DNA of 27,823 nucleotides, taken from positions 1 to 27,823 of the IMG/VR virus record IMGVR_UViG_3300036846_001011. One strand, 5' to 3'. This stretch comes from a virus. The translations under genes were made by a program, and so were the position numbers. Positions 4,845 through 24,400 of this stretch are shown here, piece by piece. Position 1 is the stretch's first letter. Each line of letters opens with the position of its first letter. The notes beneath the pieces are model-generated. The model ran no database searches. It saw only the letters and a list, made by a program, of their open reading frames with translations, and had not been told where the DNA came from.

Positions 4845-5045
4845 GCGCCTCGATCGGTCGATCGGGCGGGGGGGCCGACAATCACTGTGCCAACAAGTAG
4901 TCCCGAAACCCTCCGGGTCCGACTCAACCCCCCGCGAGTTCGCGTCAGGGGTATCCGGCGCCGGGGGGTGCAAGGGGCCGGGCCGGGCGCCGTTCGGGCC
5001 GCCTGCGGGCCGCCTGCGGCCGGGCGGTGGCGTTGGGGGCAAGGC
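4845..5045 (+). other. GC-rich intergenic region with repeats and inverted repeats
   Basis: About 200 bases between the HNH and DpdA-like genes. A tandem TCGATCGG pair lies at 4850-4865. A 7-bp inverted repeat (CCCCCCG at 4928-4934, CGGGGGG at 4962-4968) is followed by a tandem 11-bp repeat CGGGCCGCCTG (4995-5016) and a small hairpin (CCGCC 5010-5014, GGCGG 5023-5027). No T-run follows. It could hold an attenuator or leader for the modification genes. A GTG at 4887 keeps the downstream frame open, but the encoded stretch is low-complexity and does not look like protein. Confidence 0.4.
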
Positions 5046-5654
5046 GTGATCCTGCTGGTTTCCGGGGCCACGGTGACGGTCCGCAGGCATTCGAGCGTCG
5101 GCGAGTTGATCGAACCCCGCGGCGGGCACGACCCCGACTGTTTGAAACTCATCCCCGGTGCGTGGGCGATGGACAACGGCGGGTACTCGGGGTTCGAGGC
5201 CGAGCGGTTCGTGGCGATGCTCGAAAAGTTTCACGGGCGCCGCGGGTGCCGGTTCGTCGCCTCGCCCGACGTGGTCGCCGACGCGCACGCGACGCTCACG
5301 CGGTGGCCGTTTTGGTCGGCGGTGATCCGCGGCGTCGGGTTCCCGCCCGCGCTCGTGTTGCAGGATGGGATGACGGCCGCCGATGTGCCGTGGCGCGAGG
5401 TCGCCGCGGTATTCGTTGGCGGCAGCACCGAATGGAAACTCGGCCCGGTCGCGAGCAACCTCGTCGCGATCGCGAAGGGCCGCGGGTTGTGGGTGCACTA
5501 CGGGCGCGTCAACTCGGCGAAGCGGATCTGGTGGATCGCACGCAACGGCGCCGACTCATTCGACGGGTCGAGGAACTCGTGGTTCCCTGATATCAAGATC
5601 CCGCACTCGATCGCCTCGATCGACGCGACGACACAACAAGGGGTGCTGCTATGA
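5046..5654 (+). CDS. DpdA-family 7-deazaguanine DNA modification protein (TGT-like)
   Basis: From the GTG at 5046 (GGGGG 5 bases upstream) the product is 202 residues. It shows the motifs of phage DpdA-like, tRNA-guanine-transglycosylase-related proteins: W-A-M-D43-N-G-G-Y-S-G-F, A-S-P-D75-V-V, V-L-Q106-D-G, F-V-G-G-S-T-E-W-K-L, W-V-H-Y-G-R-V-N-S, and a final D-S-F-D173-G-S. By analogy with tRNA transglycosylases, Q-D-G and G-G line the base pocket and the last Asp is the likely nucleophile. DpdA enzymes exchange guanine in DNA for preQ0-type bases, often shielding phage DNA from restriction. No queuosine-precursor genes (folE, queC, queD, queE) lie in the window, so precursors would come from the host or from genes elsewhere. 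Coupled to the next gene by ATGA. Confidence 0.75.
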   Translation: MILLVSGATVTVRRHSSVGELIEPRGGHDPDCLKLIPGAWAMDNGGYSGFEAERFVAMLEKFHGRRGCRFVASPDVVADAHATLTRWPFWSAVIRGVGFPPALVLQDGMTAADVPWREVAAVFVGGSTEWKLGPVASNLVAIAKGRGLWVHYGRVNSAKRIWWIARNGADSFDGSRNSWFPDIKIPHSIASIDATTQQGVLL

Positions 5655-5845
5655 CCTCGGCCGAGCGGGCGCGCCGCGCGATGTTGCCCGACTACGCGGC
5701 GAAGGCGGGCCGGGCGTCGGTGGCGTCGGCGCGTCATCATCGCCTGTCGCCGATCGATCGCCGTCGGCGCGCGTTGCCGCGGCGAGCCGTCGCCGTGGTG
5801 CGCCGCGGATCGTGGACCGTGTTGATCGAGGTCGCCCGCCCATGA
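5651..5845 (+). CDS. small Arg-rich hypothetical protein (64 aa)
   Basis: A 64-residue, very basic protein (clusters SAERARRA, RHHRLSPIDRRRRALPRR) ending in a short hydrophobic strand (SWTVLIEVARP). No domain is recognised. Its ATG overlaps the DpdA-like stop and its TGA overlaps the methyltransferase ATG, so it is translated between two DNA-modification enzymes and could be a DNA-binding accessory. That role is inference only. Confidence 0.5.
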   Translation: MTSAERARRAMLPDYAAKAGRASVASARHHRLSPIDRRRRALPRRAVAVVRRGSWTVLIEVARP

Positions 5846-7383
5846 GTGATCCCACCACCGTCGACGCCCTCGTGCCCGACCCGCACAACCGGCGCAAGCG
5901 CACGCCGCGCAACCTCGACATGATCGCCGCGTCGCTGCGCGAGGTCGGCGCCGCGCGCTCGATCGTGATCGACGAGCACAACGAGATCCTCGCGGGCAAC
6001 GGCGTCGTCGAGAGCGCCGCGGCGGCCGGGATCTCGAAGGTGCAGGTCGTCGACGCCGACGGCGACACCGTGATCGCGGTGCGACGGATCGGCCTCACCC
6101 CCGAGCAAAAACGCGCGCTCGCGATCTTCGATAACCGGACCGGCGAGTTGGCCGAGTGGAACGTCGAGCAACTCGCCGCCGACGAGGTCGCGGGCCTCAC
6201 CTTCGAGCCATTCTTTTTTGAAGAGGAACTCCGCGCGCTGCTGCCACCGGGCGGCCGCCGCGGGCACACCGATCCCGATGCGATCCCTGAGCCGGTCGCG
6301 ACGTCGATCAAGGTGGGCGACGTGTTCGCGCTCGACGACCACCGGGTGTTCTGCGGCGACACCACCGACCCCGCGGCGATCGCGCGCCTCGTGGGCGACG
6401 TGCCGTGTGCGCTGCTGCACGCCGACCCGCCGTACGGCATGGGCAAAGAGGCCGAGGGGATCGCGAACGACAACCTGCGCCGCGAGCACCTCGACGCGTT
6501 TCAGATGCAATGGTGGGGCGCGTGGTCGGCGGCGCTCGCCGAGAACGGCAGCGCGTACGTGTGGGGCACGGCGCCGGATCTCTGGCGGCTCTGGTACTGC
6601 GGCGGCCTCGGCGACGTGCCGGGCCTGATGGTGCGCAACGAGATCGTGTGGGATAAGGGCGCCGCGTTCGGCATGGCGTCGGACCTGCACCACTCGTATC
6701 CAGTCGGGACCGAGCGGTGCTTGTTCGTCATGCGCGGCCAACAGTTCCTCGGCAACCAAAACATCGCCGACTATTGGGACGGCTACGAACCGTTGCGCCT
6801 CTGGCTCGAAGGCGAACGCGATCGCGCGGGGTGGAAGAACAGCGACGTCAACCGGATCACCAACACGAACATGGCGGGCCACTGGTTGACGAAATCGCAG
6901 TTTCACCCGATCCCCGAGCGGCAGTACAACGTCCTCGCCGCCGCCGCCGAGGGCCGCGCGTTCACCGAGCCGTATGCCGATCTGTTCGCGCGGTTGTTTC
7001 CCGACCTGCGCGGCGACGGCAACGCCTACCGGCGCGAGTTGTCCGCGCAGCTACGCGAGGCCCGCACGTTTTTCGACAACGCGCACGAGACGATGACCGA
7101 CGTGTGGAAGTTTCCGCGCGTGCACGGTGAGGAACGGTTCGGCCACGCGACACCGAAACCGGTGGCGATGGTGATGCGCGCGTTGCGGTCGTCGAGTGAA
7201 CCGGGCGACGTGGTCGGCGTGCCGTTCGGCGGCACCGGCCCCGAACTGATCGCGGCCGAGCAACTCGGCGCCCGGCGCGTCGTCGTCGCCGAGATCGAAC
7301 CGCAGTACTGCCAGATCATCATCTCGCGGTGGGAAGCGTTCACGGGGGCGAAGGCGGCGAAGGTGGGCGAGTATGGCGGGTGA
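5842..7383 (+). CDS. ParB-like domain / DNA methyltransferase fusion
   Basis: A 513-residue protein. Residues about 5-110 form a ParB/sulfiredoxin-type domain (VDALVPDPHNRRKR, then D-E-H-N-E-I-L-A-G-N-G-V-V), common in phage methylase fusions. The catalytic domain has D195-P-P-Y, the motif IV of N6-adenine/N4-cytosine methyltransferases, and near the C-terminus P-F-G-G-T-G followed by A-A-E-Q-L-G-A-R-R-V-V-V-A-E-I-E-P, the AdoMet-binding motif I region. Motif IV before motif I indicates the beta-class order. The usual Asp in D-P-F-x-G-x-G is replaced by Val (G-V-P-F-G-G-T-G). An unusually long insert separates the motifs. It likely methylates phage DNA against restriction; the target sequence cannot be read from the gene. 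ATGA-coupled to its upstream neighbour. Confidence 0.88.
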   Translation: MSDPTTVDALVPDPHNRRKRTPRNLDMIAASLREVGAARSIVIDEHNEILAGNGVVESAAAAGISKVQVVDADGDTVIAVRRIGLTPEQKRALAIFDNRTGELAEWNVEQLAADEVAGLTFEPFFFEEELRALLPPGGRRGHTDPDAIPEPVATSIKVGDVFALDDHRVFCGDTTDPAAIARLVGDVPCALLHADPPYGMGKEAEGIANDNLRREHLDAFQMQWWGAWSAALAENGSAYVWGTAPDLWRLWYCGGLGDVPGLMVRNEIVWDKGAAFGMASDLHHSYPVGTERCLFVMRGQQFLGNQNIADYWDGYEPLRLWLEGERDRAGWKNSDVNRITNTNMAGHWLTKSQFHPIPERQYNVLAAAAEGRAFTEPYADLFARLFPDLRGDGNAYRRELSAQLREARTFFDNAHETMTDVWKFPRVHGEERFGHATPKPVAMVMRALRSSSEPGDVVGVPFGGTGPELIAAEQLGARRVVVAEIEPQYCQIIISRWEAFTGAKAAKVGEYGG

Positions 7384-7386
7384 GGG

Positions 7387-7414
7387 GGCGGCGCGACTGG
7401 TGGGCCGCGCCGCC
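7387..7414. terminator. candidate hairpin terminator between convergent genes
   Basis: A perfect 9-bp inverted repeat, GGCGGCGCG (7387-7395) and CGCGCCGCC (7406-7414), encloses a 10-base loop. It lies exactly in the 37-base gap between the plus-strand methyltransferase stop (7383) and the minus-strand stop at 7421, so it could end transcription from both sides. There is no T-run on either strand, so intrinsic termination is not assured. Confidence 0.55.
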
Positions 7415-7420
7415 GTCGGT

Positions 7421-7798
7421 CTATCGGTCGGTGCGGCCGGTCGAGCGGATCACGGTGCGCAGGGCGGCGAACGCGCGCCGCTCGTCACCCGTCTCGCGCC
7501 ACGTGCGCAGGGTCGCGGCGATCTTGTCGAGGGCGCGGCGCTCGACGCTCACGGGCGCCGGGTGGTCGACGCCTGCGCGTTCCCACCGCCACCCGTGCGC
7601 CCCGCACGACTCGTCGAGCGACCGATCGGCGTGGCCGCCGACGACGGGTTGCGCGCAGTGGACGCACACGCGCCGCGGGCGCCCGGCGTTCTGCGCGGCG
7701 GCCTGCCGCTGTTGGCGCTGCGCCGCGGTGTTGGCGCGGCCCCCGAGGCGGCCGAGGGCCTGCGCGGCGGGGTTCTTCGTGGGTTCGGTGTTCATCAT
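7421..7798 (-). CDS. hypothetical protein with Cys/His cluster (125 aa)
   Basis: Last gene of the minus-strand cassette. The start chosen is the ATG at 7798, which overlaps the upstream gene's TGA (ATGA on the minus strand); a second ATG follows at once. The N-terminal part has NPAAQALGRLGGRA and a Gln-rich helix (AAQRQQRQAAAQ), a pattern common in short basic proteins. Then comes C-V-H-C, further on D-E-S-C-G-A-H-G-W-R-W, which could bind zinc. The C-terminal third is helical and basic. No function is recognised; nucleic acid binding is possible. Confidence 0.6.
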   Translation of the reverse strand: MMNTEPTKNPAAQALGRLGGRANTAAQRQQRQAAAQNAGRPRRVCVHCAQPVVGGHADRSLDESCGAHGWRWERAGVDHPAPVSVERRALDKIAATLRTWRETGDERRAFAALRTVIRSTGRTDR

Positions 7799-8181
7799 CG
7801 GCCTCGGTTCTCTTCGGGCATGGCGACCTCGATCGAGTCGCCGCCGTTGATGTTGCCGTTGCGTACGACCTGCCCGAGCGCCTGCCAATCCCACCGCGGC
7901 GCGCAATCGAGCACCTCGCAATCGGTGACCTTGCCCGCGTCGAGCGTGATCACCACGTGCACGTCGGCGGGGAAGCGGGGGCACTCCCATGCGGGGATGT
8001 CCTCGTCGACGTGGTCGGGCAGTTCGTCGATCAGGTCGTCGAGCGTGGGCATCTCACCTTCGCTGATGGCGCCGCCCTCGCGCCCGTCGTCGTGCAGGTT
8101 GCCGATCATGGCGTCGACCGCGGCGTGCAGCAGGGCGCGCGCGCGTTCGAGTTCCGCCTCGCGTTGTGGGGTGAGGGCCAT
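7795..8181 (-). CDS. acidic hypothetical protein (128 aa)
   Basis: A 128-residue acidic protein: an N-terminal helix (PQREAELERARALLHAAVDA), a very acidic centre (TLDDLIDELPDHVDEDI) and a beta-rich C-terminal part (ADVHVVITLDAGKVTDCEV). The ribosome site on the minus strand is AAGGGGG just upstream of the ATG at 8181. Acidic small proteins in phage accessory cassettes are sometimes DNA mimics or inhibitors, but nothing here proves that. Overlaps the next gene by the ATGA pattern. Confidence 0.6.
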   Translation of the reverse strand: MALTPQREAELERARALLHAAVDAMIGNLHDDGREGGAISEGEMPTLDDLIDELPDHVDEDIPAWECPRFPADVHVVITLDAGKVTDCEVLDCAPRWDWQALGQVVRNGNINGGDSIEVAMPEENRGR

Positions 8182-8182
8182 G

Positions 8183-8476
8183 TTACCGGCCCCCCTTCGC
8201 GCGGGCGTCGAGGTCGGGCAGCGACGCGACGATCTTGCGGGCGCGGGCGAGGTCGTCGGCGACGTCCTCGAACACGTCGCCGAACCCCTCGGCGAGCGGG
8301 TCGAGATCCTGCAATTCGACCGCGAGCGAGGCGATCGATTGCAGCATGGCGCGCAGGCGCACGCGCGCGGCGGCGGCGTCGTCGGCCGCGGCGACGCGCA
8401 GGGCGGCCTTGATGGCGGCGTCCGACGGAATGACGTCGGCCGGGGTGTTGGTGTTCTTCGTGGTGTCGTTCGTCAT
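8183..8476 (-). CDS. helical hypothetical protein (97 aa)
   Basis: A 97-residue, Ala/Asp-rich, almost entirely helical protein with likely coiled-coil character (AAARVRLRAMLQSIASLAVE; DVFEDVADDLARARKIVASL). The N-terminus (MTNDTTKNTNTP) is polar and disordered. It has a clear AAGGA ribosome site upstream of the ATG at 8476 on the minus strand. The next gene starts one base after its stop, so the two are co-transcribed. No known family is recognised. Confidence 0.6.
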   Translation of the reverse strand: MTNDTTKNTNTPADVIPSDAAIKAALRVAAADDAAAARVRLRAMLQSIASLAVELQDLDPLAEGFGDVFEDVADDLARARKIVASLPDLDARAKGGR

Positions 8477-8512
8477 GTTCGTGTCCTTCGTGTTGGTTGT
8501 TGGGTTTCCGGT

Positions 8513-8839
8513 TCAGTCGTTGGGGATGGTGACGAACACGCGCTCGCCGTTCGCGTTGAACGTGGGCGCCTGCTCGGCGAGGCGCCGCGCCTCGGGGAAC
8601 CCGACCCACTTGCCCGCGCGGTTCAGGCCGCGGTTGCCGAGTTCGGCGCGCGCGATCGTGTTGAGGTCGAGATCCCCGCGGGCCGCCGCGGCGAGGATCT
8701 CGGTGGGGATCGTCTGCAACCACTCGGCGGCGCGGTCGCTGCGCCGCATTTCATCGGCGAGGCCGCCCGTGTACGTCTTACCGTCGCGCGCCGTGTAGTC
8801 GCTGCCGTTGTCGTCGTGTGTCGTGTTGGTGTTGTTCAT
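8513..8839 (-). CDS. first gene of minus-strand cassette, hypothetical (108 aa)
   Basis: A 108-residue soluble protein with a disordered Asn/Thr-rich start (MNNTNTTHDDNGSDY), a central helical part (EMRRSDRAAEWLQTIPTEIL) and G-L-N-R-A-G-K-W-V-G-F-P-E-A-R-R, ending in a beta strand (GERVFVTIPND). No ribosome site is visible upstream of the ATG at 8839, but a promoter-like pair stands 7 bases before it, so a leaderless message is possible. No function is recognised. A 36-base gap separates it from the next cassette gene. Confidence 0.6.
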   Translation of the reverse strand: MNNTNTTHDDNGSDYTARDGKTYTGGLADEMRRSDRAAEWLQTIPTEILAAAARGDLDLNTIARAELGNRGLNRAGKWVGFPEARRLAEQAPTFNANGERVFVTIPND

Positions 8840-8846
8840 GGGTAAG

Positions 8847-8876
8847 AGTGTAAATCGTAGCGGTCCGATAAATCAA
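8847..8876 (-). promoter_or_regulatory. candidate leaderless promoter of the minus-strand cassette
   Basis: On the minus strand, TTGATT (8876-8871) and TACACT (8852-8847) are separated by 18 bases, each matching 4 of 6 sigma-70 consensus positions. The -10 box ends 7 bases before the ATG at 8839, so transcription would begin at or next to the start codon. The surrounding 8840-8885 stretch is AT-rich compared with the genome. The 93-base divergent region also leads into the terminase genes on the plus strand, where AGGCAGGAAAA precedes the ATG at 8933. Confidence 0.4.
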
Positions 8877-8932
8877 GTAAATAGGGACGCCGTAACCCTC
8901 ACCGAACGGGCGGGTTATAGGCAGGAAAACGC

Positions 8933-9463
8933 ATGAAACCGGGCACCAAACCCCAACCCACCGCCGCGCGCGTGCTCGCGGGCAACCCCGGCCACCGCGC
9001 GATCAACCTCGACGAACCCCGCCCGCCCGAGGTCGGCGACGCATTCGACGACCCGCCGCCCGAACTCGACGGCCTCGCGGTGGCGTCGGCGTACTGGTGC
9101 GACCTCGCGCCGAAATTGCGACGCTGTCGACAGATCACCGCCGTCGATCGCGGCGCCCTGATCGCGTTGTGCATTGAGTGGGATCGGTACCTTGAGGCGC
9201 GCGAGAAGGCCGCGGTCGCGCGCGTGGTGAAGGCGCCGAGCGGGTACGCCATGCCGAACCCGTGGTTGGCCATTCAGACGAAGGCGCTCGCGATGTGTTT
9301 GAAACTCTGGCCCGAACTCGGCCTCACGCCGTCGAGTCGCTCGCGCGTGATCACCGAGGGGGCAGGGCCGGATGGTGACGCCTTCTCCGAGTTCGATTCG
9401 CCCGTGCCGCTCGGGCCGCTCGACGAACCCGAGGACGACGACGCGCCGCCGACGGCGCACTGA
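8933..9463 (+). CDS. terS: terminase small subunit (P27 family)
   Basis: A 176-residue protein with the P27-type small terminase plan: start MKPGTKPQPTAARVLAGNPG followed by D-E-P-R-P-P, a helical middle (AYWCDLAPKLRRC, TAVDRGALIALCIEW) and the family-typical N-P-W-L-A-I-Q-T-K-A-L-A-M-C-L-K-L and E-L-G-L-T-P-S-S-R-S-R. The small subunit recognises phage DNA and presents it to the large subunit. The acidic tail (PLDEPEDDDAPP) is less conserved in the family. The ribosome site AGGAAAA precedes the ATG. It heads the packaging and head block. Confidence 0.92.
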   Translation: MKPGTKPQPTAARVLAGNPGHRAINLDEPRPPEVGDAFDDPPPELDGLAVASAYWCDLAPKLRRCRQITAVDRGALIALCIEWDRYLEAREKAAVARVVKAPSGYAMPNPWLAIQTKALAMCLKLWPELGLTPSSRSRVITEGAGPDGDAFSEFDSPVPLGPLDEPEDDDAPPTAH

Positions 9464-9498
9464 AAATGAAAAGGGGCCGCGCATGGCCGCGCGACCCC
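9461..9498 (-). terminator. minus-strand rho-independent-like terminator
   Basis: GGGGCCGCGC (9473-9482) and GCGCGACCCC (9489-9498) pair at 9 of 10 positions around a 6-base loop. Read on the minus strand the hairpin is followed at once by TTTTCATTTT (complement of 9463-9472), the layout of an intrinsic terminator. On the plus strand no T-run follows. It would stop leftward transcription before it reaches the minus-strand cassette promoter. The loop also holds ATG 9483, an alternative start of the large terminase. Confidence 0.5.
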
Positions 9499-21462: not shown

Positions 21463-24400
21463 TCCTCACCAAAGCCGTCTCGGGATTGGCGCGCTCGGGC
21501 GCGACGCGCTCGGGGTTTCCGATCCTGCGCGGCACGCAGTCGAAACTCTTCGCGATCTCGAACATCGCGCGATCGGGGGCGACGCGCTCGAACTATCACA
21601 GCACCAAACCGTTCATCACGATCAACGGCGTGCCGATCGCGTGGGGCAGTCATCACACGCCCGACGACCCCGGCATCCTCGCCGAGTCGCTCACGATCCA
21701 GTTGGCCGTCAACGCGACGCCCGCGACCCTCAGCATGATCGCGCGGCAGTACGTCCCGATCGAAGGCGCCGACGTGGTGCTCACGCTCGGATCGCCGAAC
21801 AACCTGCGGCGCGAGTTCGGCGGCACGATCCTCAGCACGCGGCACCGCTACGTCGGCGACAAACCGGTCGCGGCCAACATGATGTACGACGTCGCCTGCA
21901 TCGATTGGATGTGGGGGTTGGGTCGGCGCAAGGTGTCGGGCGAGTACACCGCCACCACCGTCGCCGCGATCGCCGCGTCGCTGATGACGTACGCGCCCAC
22001 CGGCTACACGTTGTGGGTCGAACCCGATATCGGCGCCGAGGTGATCGACGAAATCTCGTTCACCGAAACGACGCTCGCCAACGCGTTCTCGCAACTCACC
22101 AAGCGGGTCGGCGGCGATTTTCAGTGTGACTTTTTGAAGGTCGTGAAACTGTTCTTCACCGATTCGACGATCACGCAACCCGGCATCGTCAACGCGACGC
22201 ACCCGACCATGAACTCGATCGCGTGGGTGCGCGATCTGTCGCAAGTGATCACGCGGTGCCTCGGCGAGTTCGGCGGATCGACGGCGCTCGAACAGATCGC
22301 GCCCGCCTCGACGCTGCTGCCAGTCGACACCGCCGCGTGGTACCTCGCCGCGGGCGGCGTCGTGCTCGTGAACCAACAGCGCGTCACGTACGGCGGCCTC
22401 GTGGTGGGCGGCGGCGGATCGCTGGTGGGGCCGGGCGCCGCGCCAACCGGCGCGCCCAACGTGGTCCTCGCGACGGGTGCAGGCGTCGACCTCGGCGCCC
22501 ACGACTACGCGGTCACGTTCCGCACGGCGTCGGGTGAGTCGATCCCCGGTCCGCGCGTGTCGGTCGTCGTCGGGTCGTTCCTGCCGCCCACGAGTGCGCC
22601 GGTTGCGGGCACGCGGCAAGGTGGCCCCGGCCCCGATCCCGGCACCCACGATTACGCGGTGACCTTCATTGTGTCGGGCGGCGAGACGGTGCCCGGCCCG
22701 CGGGTGACGGTCGCCCCGACCCTCGTCGACGCCCCGCCGACGGGGCCGACGCCCGATAGCGTGTCGCCGGGTGCAGGCCCCGATGCGGGCGCGCACGACT
22801 ACGCGTGTTCGTTCCTCACGGCGACCGGCGAAACCCCGGTGGGGCCGATCGGGTCGCAAATCACCACCGGGCCGATGACGCCGCCGACCGGGGCGCCCGG
22901 CGTCGGCGCGATGTTGCCGGGGCCGACGGTGTCGGCGCTGCCGCCCGCGCGGTACGACTACGCCCTGTCGTTTCAGATCGCGAGCGGCGAGACGACGTGC
23001 GGCCCGCTCGGGTTGATCGACACCACGCGACAGGCCCCGCTCACGCCGCCCGGCCCGCTCGTGATCGATCAACACATGGACAGCACGCAGTGGGTCGTGA
23101 CCAACGCGAGCGGGCACGCCGGGGATCGCGTGCGGTACTGCTATTCGTACAGCACGACCTATCAGTGGAACGACATGCAACAGGAGTCGGCCTTGTCGCC
23201 GCCGTCGGCCGAGATCATGGTGCTGGTCGGCGTCCCTCTATCGAATTACGAGACGGTCCAGTACCGCGCCGTCTCACAACCGATCGCCGGGCCGCTGGAT
23301 TCGCGCATTCAGAATCAGCACATCTGGATCAGCATCAACGGCGCGCAGTGGGCGTTGTACGCGACGATCCCGGCGAGCAACGTGCAATTCACGCTACAGG
23401 TGAACGCCTCGTTTGAGAACAGCGGCGGCCTTCCGGGGCAGCGGCCGCCGCCCGCCGCCGTCTATGGGCCGAGCGGGACGGTGCCGTTGTCGTGGGCGAG
23501 TGGCGGCAATGCGAGCGTGGCGTTCCGCCTCTATCGCCGCGTGAGCGGATCGGGCACGTTGCAACTCGTGCGACAGTTCACCAACGCCGTCGGCCAGTTC
23601 GGGATCCTCGCGCCGACGACGGCCCCGCAAGCGTACGTCAGCGGCTCCGGGCAAGGCCCGCTCAGTGTCGGATGGTATTCGTGGCGCGTCACCTTCGTGA
23701 CCGCCGAGGGGGAAACCGAACCCGGCCCCACAACGAACCTCGTGCAGTTCACGAACCCGGCGGTGTCGGGCCGCGCGGATCTGTACACCATCCCGACCGG
23801 CGCGGCCGACGCGGGCGTGACCGCGCGCAGAATTTACCGCACGACCGCAGGCGGATCGGTGTTCAAGCTGGTCGCGACGCTCAACGACAACACGACGACG
23901 TTCTACACCGACTTCATCGCCGATGCGAGTCTCGGCGCCGTCGCGCCGAACGCGAACACCACGGGCGATCGCGTGCTCGCCGGAAACCTCGGCCCCGCGG
24001 CGCCGGGCACCAACACCGCCGTCATCAATACGGTGCATGTGTCGAGCATCCCGCGCGGCGCCGCAGGCATCACCGGTCGCCGCCTCTATCGGCGCTCGGG
24101 TGGGGCGGGCCTGCGGTTCCTCGCGACGCTCGCCGACAACAGCACGAGCGCCTACACCGACACGACGGCGAACGCCGGATTGGGCGCGGCCCCGCCCGCG
24201 GGCAACTCGGCGTACCTGCTGCAACTCCCGCTCACCAACATCGCGATCGGGAGTGCACTGGTGACGGGGCGCAAACTCTATCGCACCGCGGCGAACGCCT
24301 CGCAATTGAAATTGTTGGCGACGCTCGCCGACAACGTGACCACCACCTACACCGACGCGACGGCCGACAGCGGCCTCGGGGCGAACGCGCCGACGGTGAG

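Follow-up and report, generated by a model that had tools for sequence, protein, structure and literature searches.

A minus-strand gene cassette beside the terminase genes of an IMG/VR virus record: a candidate self-regulated accessory operon with an operator-like dyad and a recurrent small gene

The window analysed here is the whole of IMG/VR virus record IMGVR_UViG_3300036846_001011, a linear record of 27,823 bases that stems from a soil phage, and the element in question is a cassette of four compact genes, A to D, which run on the minus strand between a DNA methyltransferase gene and the gene of the terminase small subunit (TerS). On balance, we lean towards the view that this cassette is a self-regulated accessory operon, in which gene D would encode a DNA-binding autorepressor of a fast-evolving cargo and would act in the manner of the anti-CRISPR-associated (Aca) repressors. 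The reasoning is one of comparative inference throughout: the promoter of the cassette carries a conserved operator-like dyad and gene D recurs together with this dyad, and for this reason the cassette looks like a regulated, probably autoregulated, operon and not just like the insulated accessory unit (moron) that had been proposed earlier for this DNA (the original prediction). Codon-usage scoring, trained on nine other plus-strand genes of the window, picks exactly four minus-strand genes (7421-7798, 7795-8181, 8183-8476 and 8513-8839, stops included), while all other called genes of the window are on the plus strand, just as the original prediction had described.

The putative promoter of the cassette (8847-8876, minus strand) is formed by a -35 box TTGATT (8876-8871), an 18-nt spacer and a -10 box TACACT (8852-8847). 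The promoter-like pair that had been noticed before gene A does exist, then, and it is weak: it has 8 of the 12 consensus matches, and a sigma-70 consensus scan at 9/12 found no promoter. What makes it convincing is that the region is conserved in relatives. Inside the -35/-10 spacer lies an operator-like dyad, ATCGGACCGCTACGAT (8854-8869, minus strand). This 16-bp dyad, ATCNGASCGSTCNGAT, recurs among relatives either between the -35 and -10 boxes of the cassette or directly before gene D. It was first seen by reading the minus-strand promoter regions of relatives and is clear by eye in 16 of 23 such regions; a Gibbs search over the 23 regions converges on it with a score of 281, versus 189-192 in four shuffled sets that were given one start and fewer rounds than the real set. 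A position weight matrix (PWM) was then built from 13 clear sites, picked from the Gibbs output after the data had been seen. In its leave-one-out form, this PWM gives the window dyad a score of 25.7 at 8848-8869, the best of the window, versus maxima in 100 simulated random windows that average 11.8 and reach 19.9 at the highest. Searching viral contigs with one consensus promoter-operator pattern returned 0 matches, its gap range being too strict (even locus L072 was excluded), and this result has no bearing on the operator.

Two other roles for the dyad were considered and rejected: (i) a binding site for TerS or a cos-binding protein, because in records G046 and G073 the sites lie beside D, kilobases away from TerS, and none is present at the TerS junction of locus L004; and (ii) for the cassette site, an RNA hairpin element, because the site is upstream of the -10 box and folds poorly as RNA (-2.9 kcal/mol). 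Where the dyad touches the start codon of D, the site may have a role at the RNA level; Aca2 binds RNA in addition to DNA. Regarding the transcripts, the first ATG lies 6-8 nt past the -10 box in 9 of the 15 cassette promoters examined, and for this reason cassette transcripts are predicted to be leaderless. In the window, the ATG of gene A is found 7 nt past the -10 box, so that its transcript is probably leaderless too.

Relatives were collected by a search with the terminase large subunit (TerL), which gave 40 viral loci, and a later alignment search added more; TerS could be placed in 64 distinct loci, several of the records being fragments. A minus-strand neighbour is present in 24 of the 57 loci that have both a TerS call and an upstream gene. 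Across these uncultured relatives, the locus holds from 0 to about 11 minus-strand genes, which are mostly unrelated to one another (leftward operons of up to about 11 genes are found in L022 and L041). A direct comparison is that of L003 and L004, which have about 92% identity in both flanks: positions 1719-3259 of L003 (1,541 bp, comprising the cassette and the operator) are replaced by 2 bp in L004. As in L004, the methyltransferase gene abuts TerS, with no cassette, in L007 and L008. Relatives that lack the block and keep the flanking genes therefore exist, as the original prediction had proposed to check, and the four genes are not a fixed core module with a virion or replication role in all relatives. 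Judging from these comparisons, the block is an accessory one at a variable locus between methyltransferase and terminase. Its absence from these relatives, the swapping of its gene content and its own conserved promoter support the independently expressed accessory unit of the original prediction.

What does recur is the control region and gene D. The window, L003 and L017 have only D and the promoter in common, and L002 and L003 have promoter DNA that is 92.6% identical in front of different first genes. Clustering of 129 proteins from 24 minus-strand operons (the window included, L065 left out as a near-duplicate) yielded few shared families; these include D, a HELGH-motif protein, DUF3768 (E 1e-24), an ATP-dependent DNA ligase (E 3e-22) and a weakly matched von Willebrand-like protein (PF13519, E 0.02). 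The products of window genes A, B and C have no homologue among these cargo proteins of the relatives' operons. Orientation is not fixed either: among the matches listed, D is on the TerS strand in L048-L055 and L063.

Gene D (7424-7798, minus strand, with its start at 7798 or 7795) is the last of the four genes and serves as the marker of the cassette. Its product, of 124-125 aa, is basic (net charge +10) and has three parts: (i) an N-terminal LGRLGG..NT..Q..R....(A)GRPRRV module; (ii) a C44/C47/H55/C64 pattern (CxxC/H/C); and (iii) a C-terminal helical hairpin. The pattern is zinc-binding-like, and D would presumably bind zinc. In an alignment of 24 members, 20 columns are invariant, among them C44, C47, H55 and C64. 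The AlphaFold2 model consists of two N-terminal helices, a short cysteine-bearing strand region and a C-terminal helical hairpin, with a predicted local distance difference test score (pLDDT) of 80 and a predicted template modelling score (pTM) of 0.43. D is present in 8 of the 40 TerL relatives, at 45-72% identity. Searches by tblastn of 50,697 phage and 72,556 plasmid records (with the window D against phages and the D of L049 against phages and plasmids) did not find it, nor was it found in any of the 9 cellular genomes searched. Literature searches, one on GGRPR-type motifs and one on anti-defence operons with zinc or a palindromic operator, found nothing relevant.

The association between D and the operator-like site was scored in 24 records of 27-44 kb, a site being a match of more than 16 bits outside called genes, a rule that was set after the scores had been seen. 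The site is present in 9 of 9 records with D and in 2 of 15 without it (Fisher p 4e-5, a value that is indicative only, the records being related and not independent). In one of the two exceptions, G074, the site is directly upstream of a gene with a D-like N-terminal module. No operator is present in the empty-site records, G003 (L004; best score 9.6) and G007 (L008; best score 12.9), and the minus-strand operons without D in G045 (L172) and G018 (L019) have no promoter-proximal operator. Placement was addressed separately with a PWM made from cassette promoters only and a threshold of >6 bits; 62 D hits were collapsed to 25 by identical D cores, and 3 of these 25 were dropped as the anchor motif was missing. 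Of 22 D genes, 16 have a site above the threshold near their start, versus 42 of 481 other genes (Mann-Whitney U p 3.5e-8, again indicative, as some D genes and TerS starts share training sites), and many of the 42 are cassette first genes or TerS, that is, regions holding training sites. The D genes of the window, L003 and L017 have no site of their own but are located inside an operator-headed operon. Two D loci found later, L317 and L320, each carry a site where D begins, which scores 16.0 bits in L317 and 9.3 bits in L320 under a symmetric PWM; in L320, three other places score above it.

The module also occurs outside the D family. In phage ctQWt234 (MW202801.1), an operon encodes ArdC (PF08401, PF18818), two unknown genes and, in last position, a D-like GGKP-module protein, and is headed by TTGACA-TAACCTAAGCGATTAGGT-TAATCT, where a 20-bp palindrome with 8-bp arms around a 4-nt centre sits between the -35 and -10 boxes, much as in the window. 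The module protein differs from D in its N-terminal part and has no CxxC/H/C pattern, and ArdC is absent from the window. Since a D-like module thus ends an ArdC operon headed by a similar palindrome, an anti-defence cargo is plausible, by analogy, for the cassette. In vir555, a weaker dyad, seen by eye (a palindrome script gave none), stands in front of an operon of two genes, the last of which carries such a module. Plasmid pSHINM1 has the module as the tail of a protein with DUF2442, encoded next to DUF4160, and no palindrome was found at that locus. As a separate observation, L072, a different phage type, has TTGACA-operator-TATACT before an operon (4980-5282 and 5370-5822) with a gene ending in LGKLGG...GGRPR.

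If the operon reading is right, the cassette would work as follows. Host RNA polymerase would start at the sigma-70-like promoter just before the first gene, giving an mRNA that is probably leaderless; D, made from the end of the operon, would bind the 16-bp dyad between the -35 and -10 boxes; and this binding would shut the promoter, the result being an early burst after which the cassette falls silent. Behind such a switch, the cargo could be freely exchanged between phages, and its most likely use would be to counter host defences or to help in early host takeover.

The nearest known systems are the acr-aca operons (Aca1-Aca12), in which, likewise, a single promoter drives a variable set of small genes and the operon includes a small, conserved gene that resembles a regulator. 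Parts of PMC9410906 describe Aca operons with an inverted repeat inside the core promoter, which is where the window dyad lies (8854-8869). D is also below 150 aa (124-125 aa) and stands in an operon with small variable genes, as expected of an Aca. On the other hand, excerpts of PMC9765179 state that all 12 known Aca families match the Pfam helix-turn-helix (HTH) clan, and D has neither a match to that clan nor a fold match; for this reason D is not filed as an Aca, and by analogy it probably works like one. A second parallel is offered by archaeal viruses, in which, as argued in portions of PMC11065993, accessory genes that are unrelated to each other and have a regulatory sequence in common probably serve in anti-defence. 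These early anti-defence regulons resemble the present case, as far as those portions go, in that a single conserved regulatory sequence is common to accessory genes of diverse, unrelated kinds, which are themselves not kept among close relatives; they differ in belonging to archaeal viruses and in their strong early promoters, whereas bacterial-type promoters, a dyad in the spacer and a co-travelling D are found here.

A bolder proposal, which we regard as possible and put forward tentatively, is that D is the first of a group of Aca-like autorepressors without HTH, that this group reads a CG-centred dyad by means of a GGRPR module, which in D is joined to a zinc-binding knuckle, and that D marks, in uncultured soil phages, a hotspot of anti-defence genes not yet described. 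A different protein would then have arrived at the Aca logic. Since anti-defence genes share no sequence, finding them is difficult; D together with a 16-bp operator, travelling with changing small genes, offers a way to list candidates in phages that have no cultured relatives, and, if the proposal is true, D-plus-operator searches would find undescribed anti-defence genes systematically.

A number of observations weigh against the self-regulated operon, in addition to the relatedness of the records and the shared training sites mentioned above. Concerning the proteins, D has no PDB or BFVD fold match with E < 0.001, the Pfam matches listed at E<=0.5 for 24 D proteins (8 families) include no HTH family, and comparison of A-D with the defence genes of PADLOC gave no credible match, so that no anti-defence or defence family is recognised for the window cargo. 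Concerning the dyad, its centre is mostly asymmetric (CCGC or GCGG); the association with D weakens when a symmetric 16-bp PWM is used (9 vs 15 records, p 0.0017), which leaves G075, G019 and G021 at background. The ctQWt234 example is distant, with a PWM score of only 14.3. Record G067, the second exception, lacks D proper and has a 16.3-bit intergenic site, a GGRPR protein being encoded elsewhere in the record, and the D genes of L057, L055 and L205 have no good site at their start. Finally, in G037 sites are found also at a serine-recombinase-like gene and elsewhere; the regulon can therefore be wider than the cassette, and in G037 it may include the recombinase.

These last sites speak for a different explanation, which we take to be rather unlikely: the dyad would serve as operator in a phage switch of wider reach (lysis-lysogeny or early-late), D would be a general early regulator, possibly an activator, and the cassette would be one target of several. 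One of the G037 sites (24278, 17.8 bits) is at the 5' end of the large serine-recombinase-like call, another (22647) is within its 3' part, ahead of the gene that follows, and others precede three leftward genes. Besides, the -35 box of several promoters is poor (2-3 of 6), as in activator-dependent promoters. Against this, G016, which by eye has an integrase-like and a repressor-like gene, has its only sites above 13 bits at the cassette promoter, the window has the operator at one place only, and D and the operator are both absent from relatives with otherwise similar genes.

Less likely again is that D is a passenger and that a host factor, or some other protein of the phage, occupies the operator. 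The lack of a recognised DNA-binding fold in D, and the D genes without a good site, would be accounted for in this way; the co-occurrence of D with the site, the placement of sites at the D start and the fact that related phages without D are mostly without the site would not.

We give a still smaller chance to an ordinary moron, that is, an acquired transcription unit with no special regulation. The cassette does resemble phage morons: it is an independent unit inserted between core genes, with a hairpin at its end, absent from close relatives that keep both flanks (L004, L007, L008), and it has its own promoter, as judged only by comparison from the conserved -10/operator region. It differs from morons in that the cargo is continually replaced behind a fixed switch, and in that the block comprises about 11 genes in some relatives or runs in the same direction as TerS in others; the conserved operator across unrelated cassettes and the recurrence of D are left unexplained by a moron as such.

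Type II antitoxins autoregulate via palindromes. An addiction or abortive-infection module of toxin-antitoxin type, with D as its autoregulating antitoxin, is nonetheless very improbable: the D-like GGRPR tail on the DUF2442 protein beside DUF4160 in pSHINM1 speaks for it, the DUF4160/DUF2442 pair being listed as a putative toxin-antitoxin system (dhiTA) in a part of PMC8198452, but D has no fixed partner, its neighbours differing in most relatives, and PADLOC gave no credible match to A-D.

Turning to the rest of the cassette, the genes are tightly spaced (A-B 36 nt, B-C 1 nt, C and D overlapping by 4 nt) and are called by coding score, their starts being predictions. Gene A (8516-8839, minus strand, 108 aa) is the first gene. 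The profile searches that the original prediction had called for brought a match of gene A to phrog_22970, of unknown function (E 5e-10), and no function for any of A-D from PADLOC, NCBIfam, Pfam or PHROGs. Gene A has a domain of about 50 aa in common with hypothetical proteins of Leptolyngbya phage Lsp-JY19 and Flavobacterium phage FPSV-S2; of 15 loci with this domain, 12 are without a 15-bit site and 3 (L333, L338 and L340) have a site of about 15 bits. Neither gene B (8186-8476, minus strand, 97 aa) nor gene C (7798-8181, minus strand, 128 aa) has a reliable match in PHROGs, Pfam, PADLOC or NCBIfam, and genes A and C, as single queries against viral contigs, found no relatives. The product of gene C is very acidic (28 acidic vs 10 basic residues of 128), for which a DNA-mimic role can only be guessed at. 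No known acr gene was recognised in the window cassette, no dedicated acr library having been searched.

The flanks are as originally described. On the left, at 5842-7383 (plus strand), is the DNA methyltransferase gene (PF01555, E 2e-19; phrog_498), whose N-terminal part is ParB-like (ParB-like PHROGs); on the right, at 8933-9463 (plus strand), is TerS (PF05119, E 2e-17; phrog_83). When TerL was compared with 84,980 species genomes, the best match, on a 5-kb contig from an Actinomycetales metagenome-assembled genome, reached 61% identity, and no host was assigned.

The hairpin predicted at the 3' end of the cassette (7387-7414, minus strand) folds strongly (-24.7 kcal/mol, z -4.4) and beats all 200 shuffles; lacking a T-run, it does not qualify as a canonical intrinsic terminator. 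L003 has its equivalent, a hairpin with another sequence (-24.5, z -6.3). The second hairpin, at 9473-9498, has a minus-strand T-run and is likewise stable (-23.7, z -4.5, beating all 200 shuffles), terminator-like sites in the region numbering 3 versus 2.6 in shuffles. It lies directly past the TerS stop, at the TerS-TerL junction. The original prediction had taken it for the upstream insulator of the cassette, and this part does not hold: the hairpin also follows TerS in L002, L017 and the cassette-less L004, and is missing from the cassette-bearing L003, where a small open reading frame takes its place. It was therefore rejected as a cassette part and, from these comparisons, belongs to the TerS-TerL junction. 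Its supposed blocking of read-through from the right is moot, there being no minus-strand gene to the right of it in the window.

An additional inverted repeat, TAACCC-13 nt-GGGTTA, was read from the sequences at 8893-8917, between the operator and TerS. Similar repeats occur in L002, L003 and L017 (imperfect in the latter), and none at the cassette-less L004 junction; the repeat may mark the right boundary of the block. At the L003/L004 boundary, it ends approximately where the L004 sequence resumes.

Some minor observations concern the relatives. Two of them encode, by eye, a serine-recombinase-like or integrase-like gene, and in G037 (L250-L252) a serine-recombinase-like protein is encoded at 22528-24303, with an operator-like site at the 5' end and others nearby. 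As to cargo, protein L073_7 of L073, from a leftward operon, begins with a cysteine-rich part that is SWIM-like and continues with a domain of ATP-dependent DNA ligases (PF01068). In several of the loci L048-L055 and L063, D is followed by a protein with TIIAWT....NPWRGC or a similar motif, which we take to be phage Gp37/Gp68-like (DUF5131). Finally, L019 (4192-5294; also L200) encodes, in a minus-strand operon beside TerS, a protein that is Ku-like by eye, presumably the DNA end-joining protein present in some phages.

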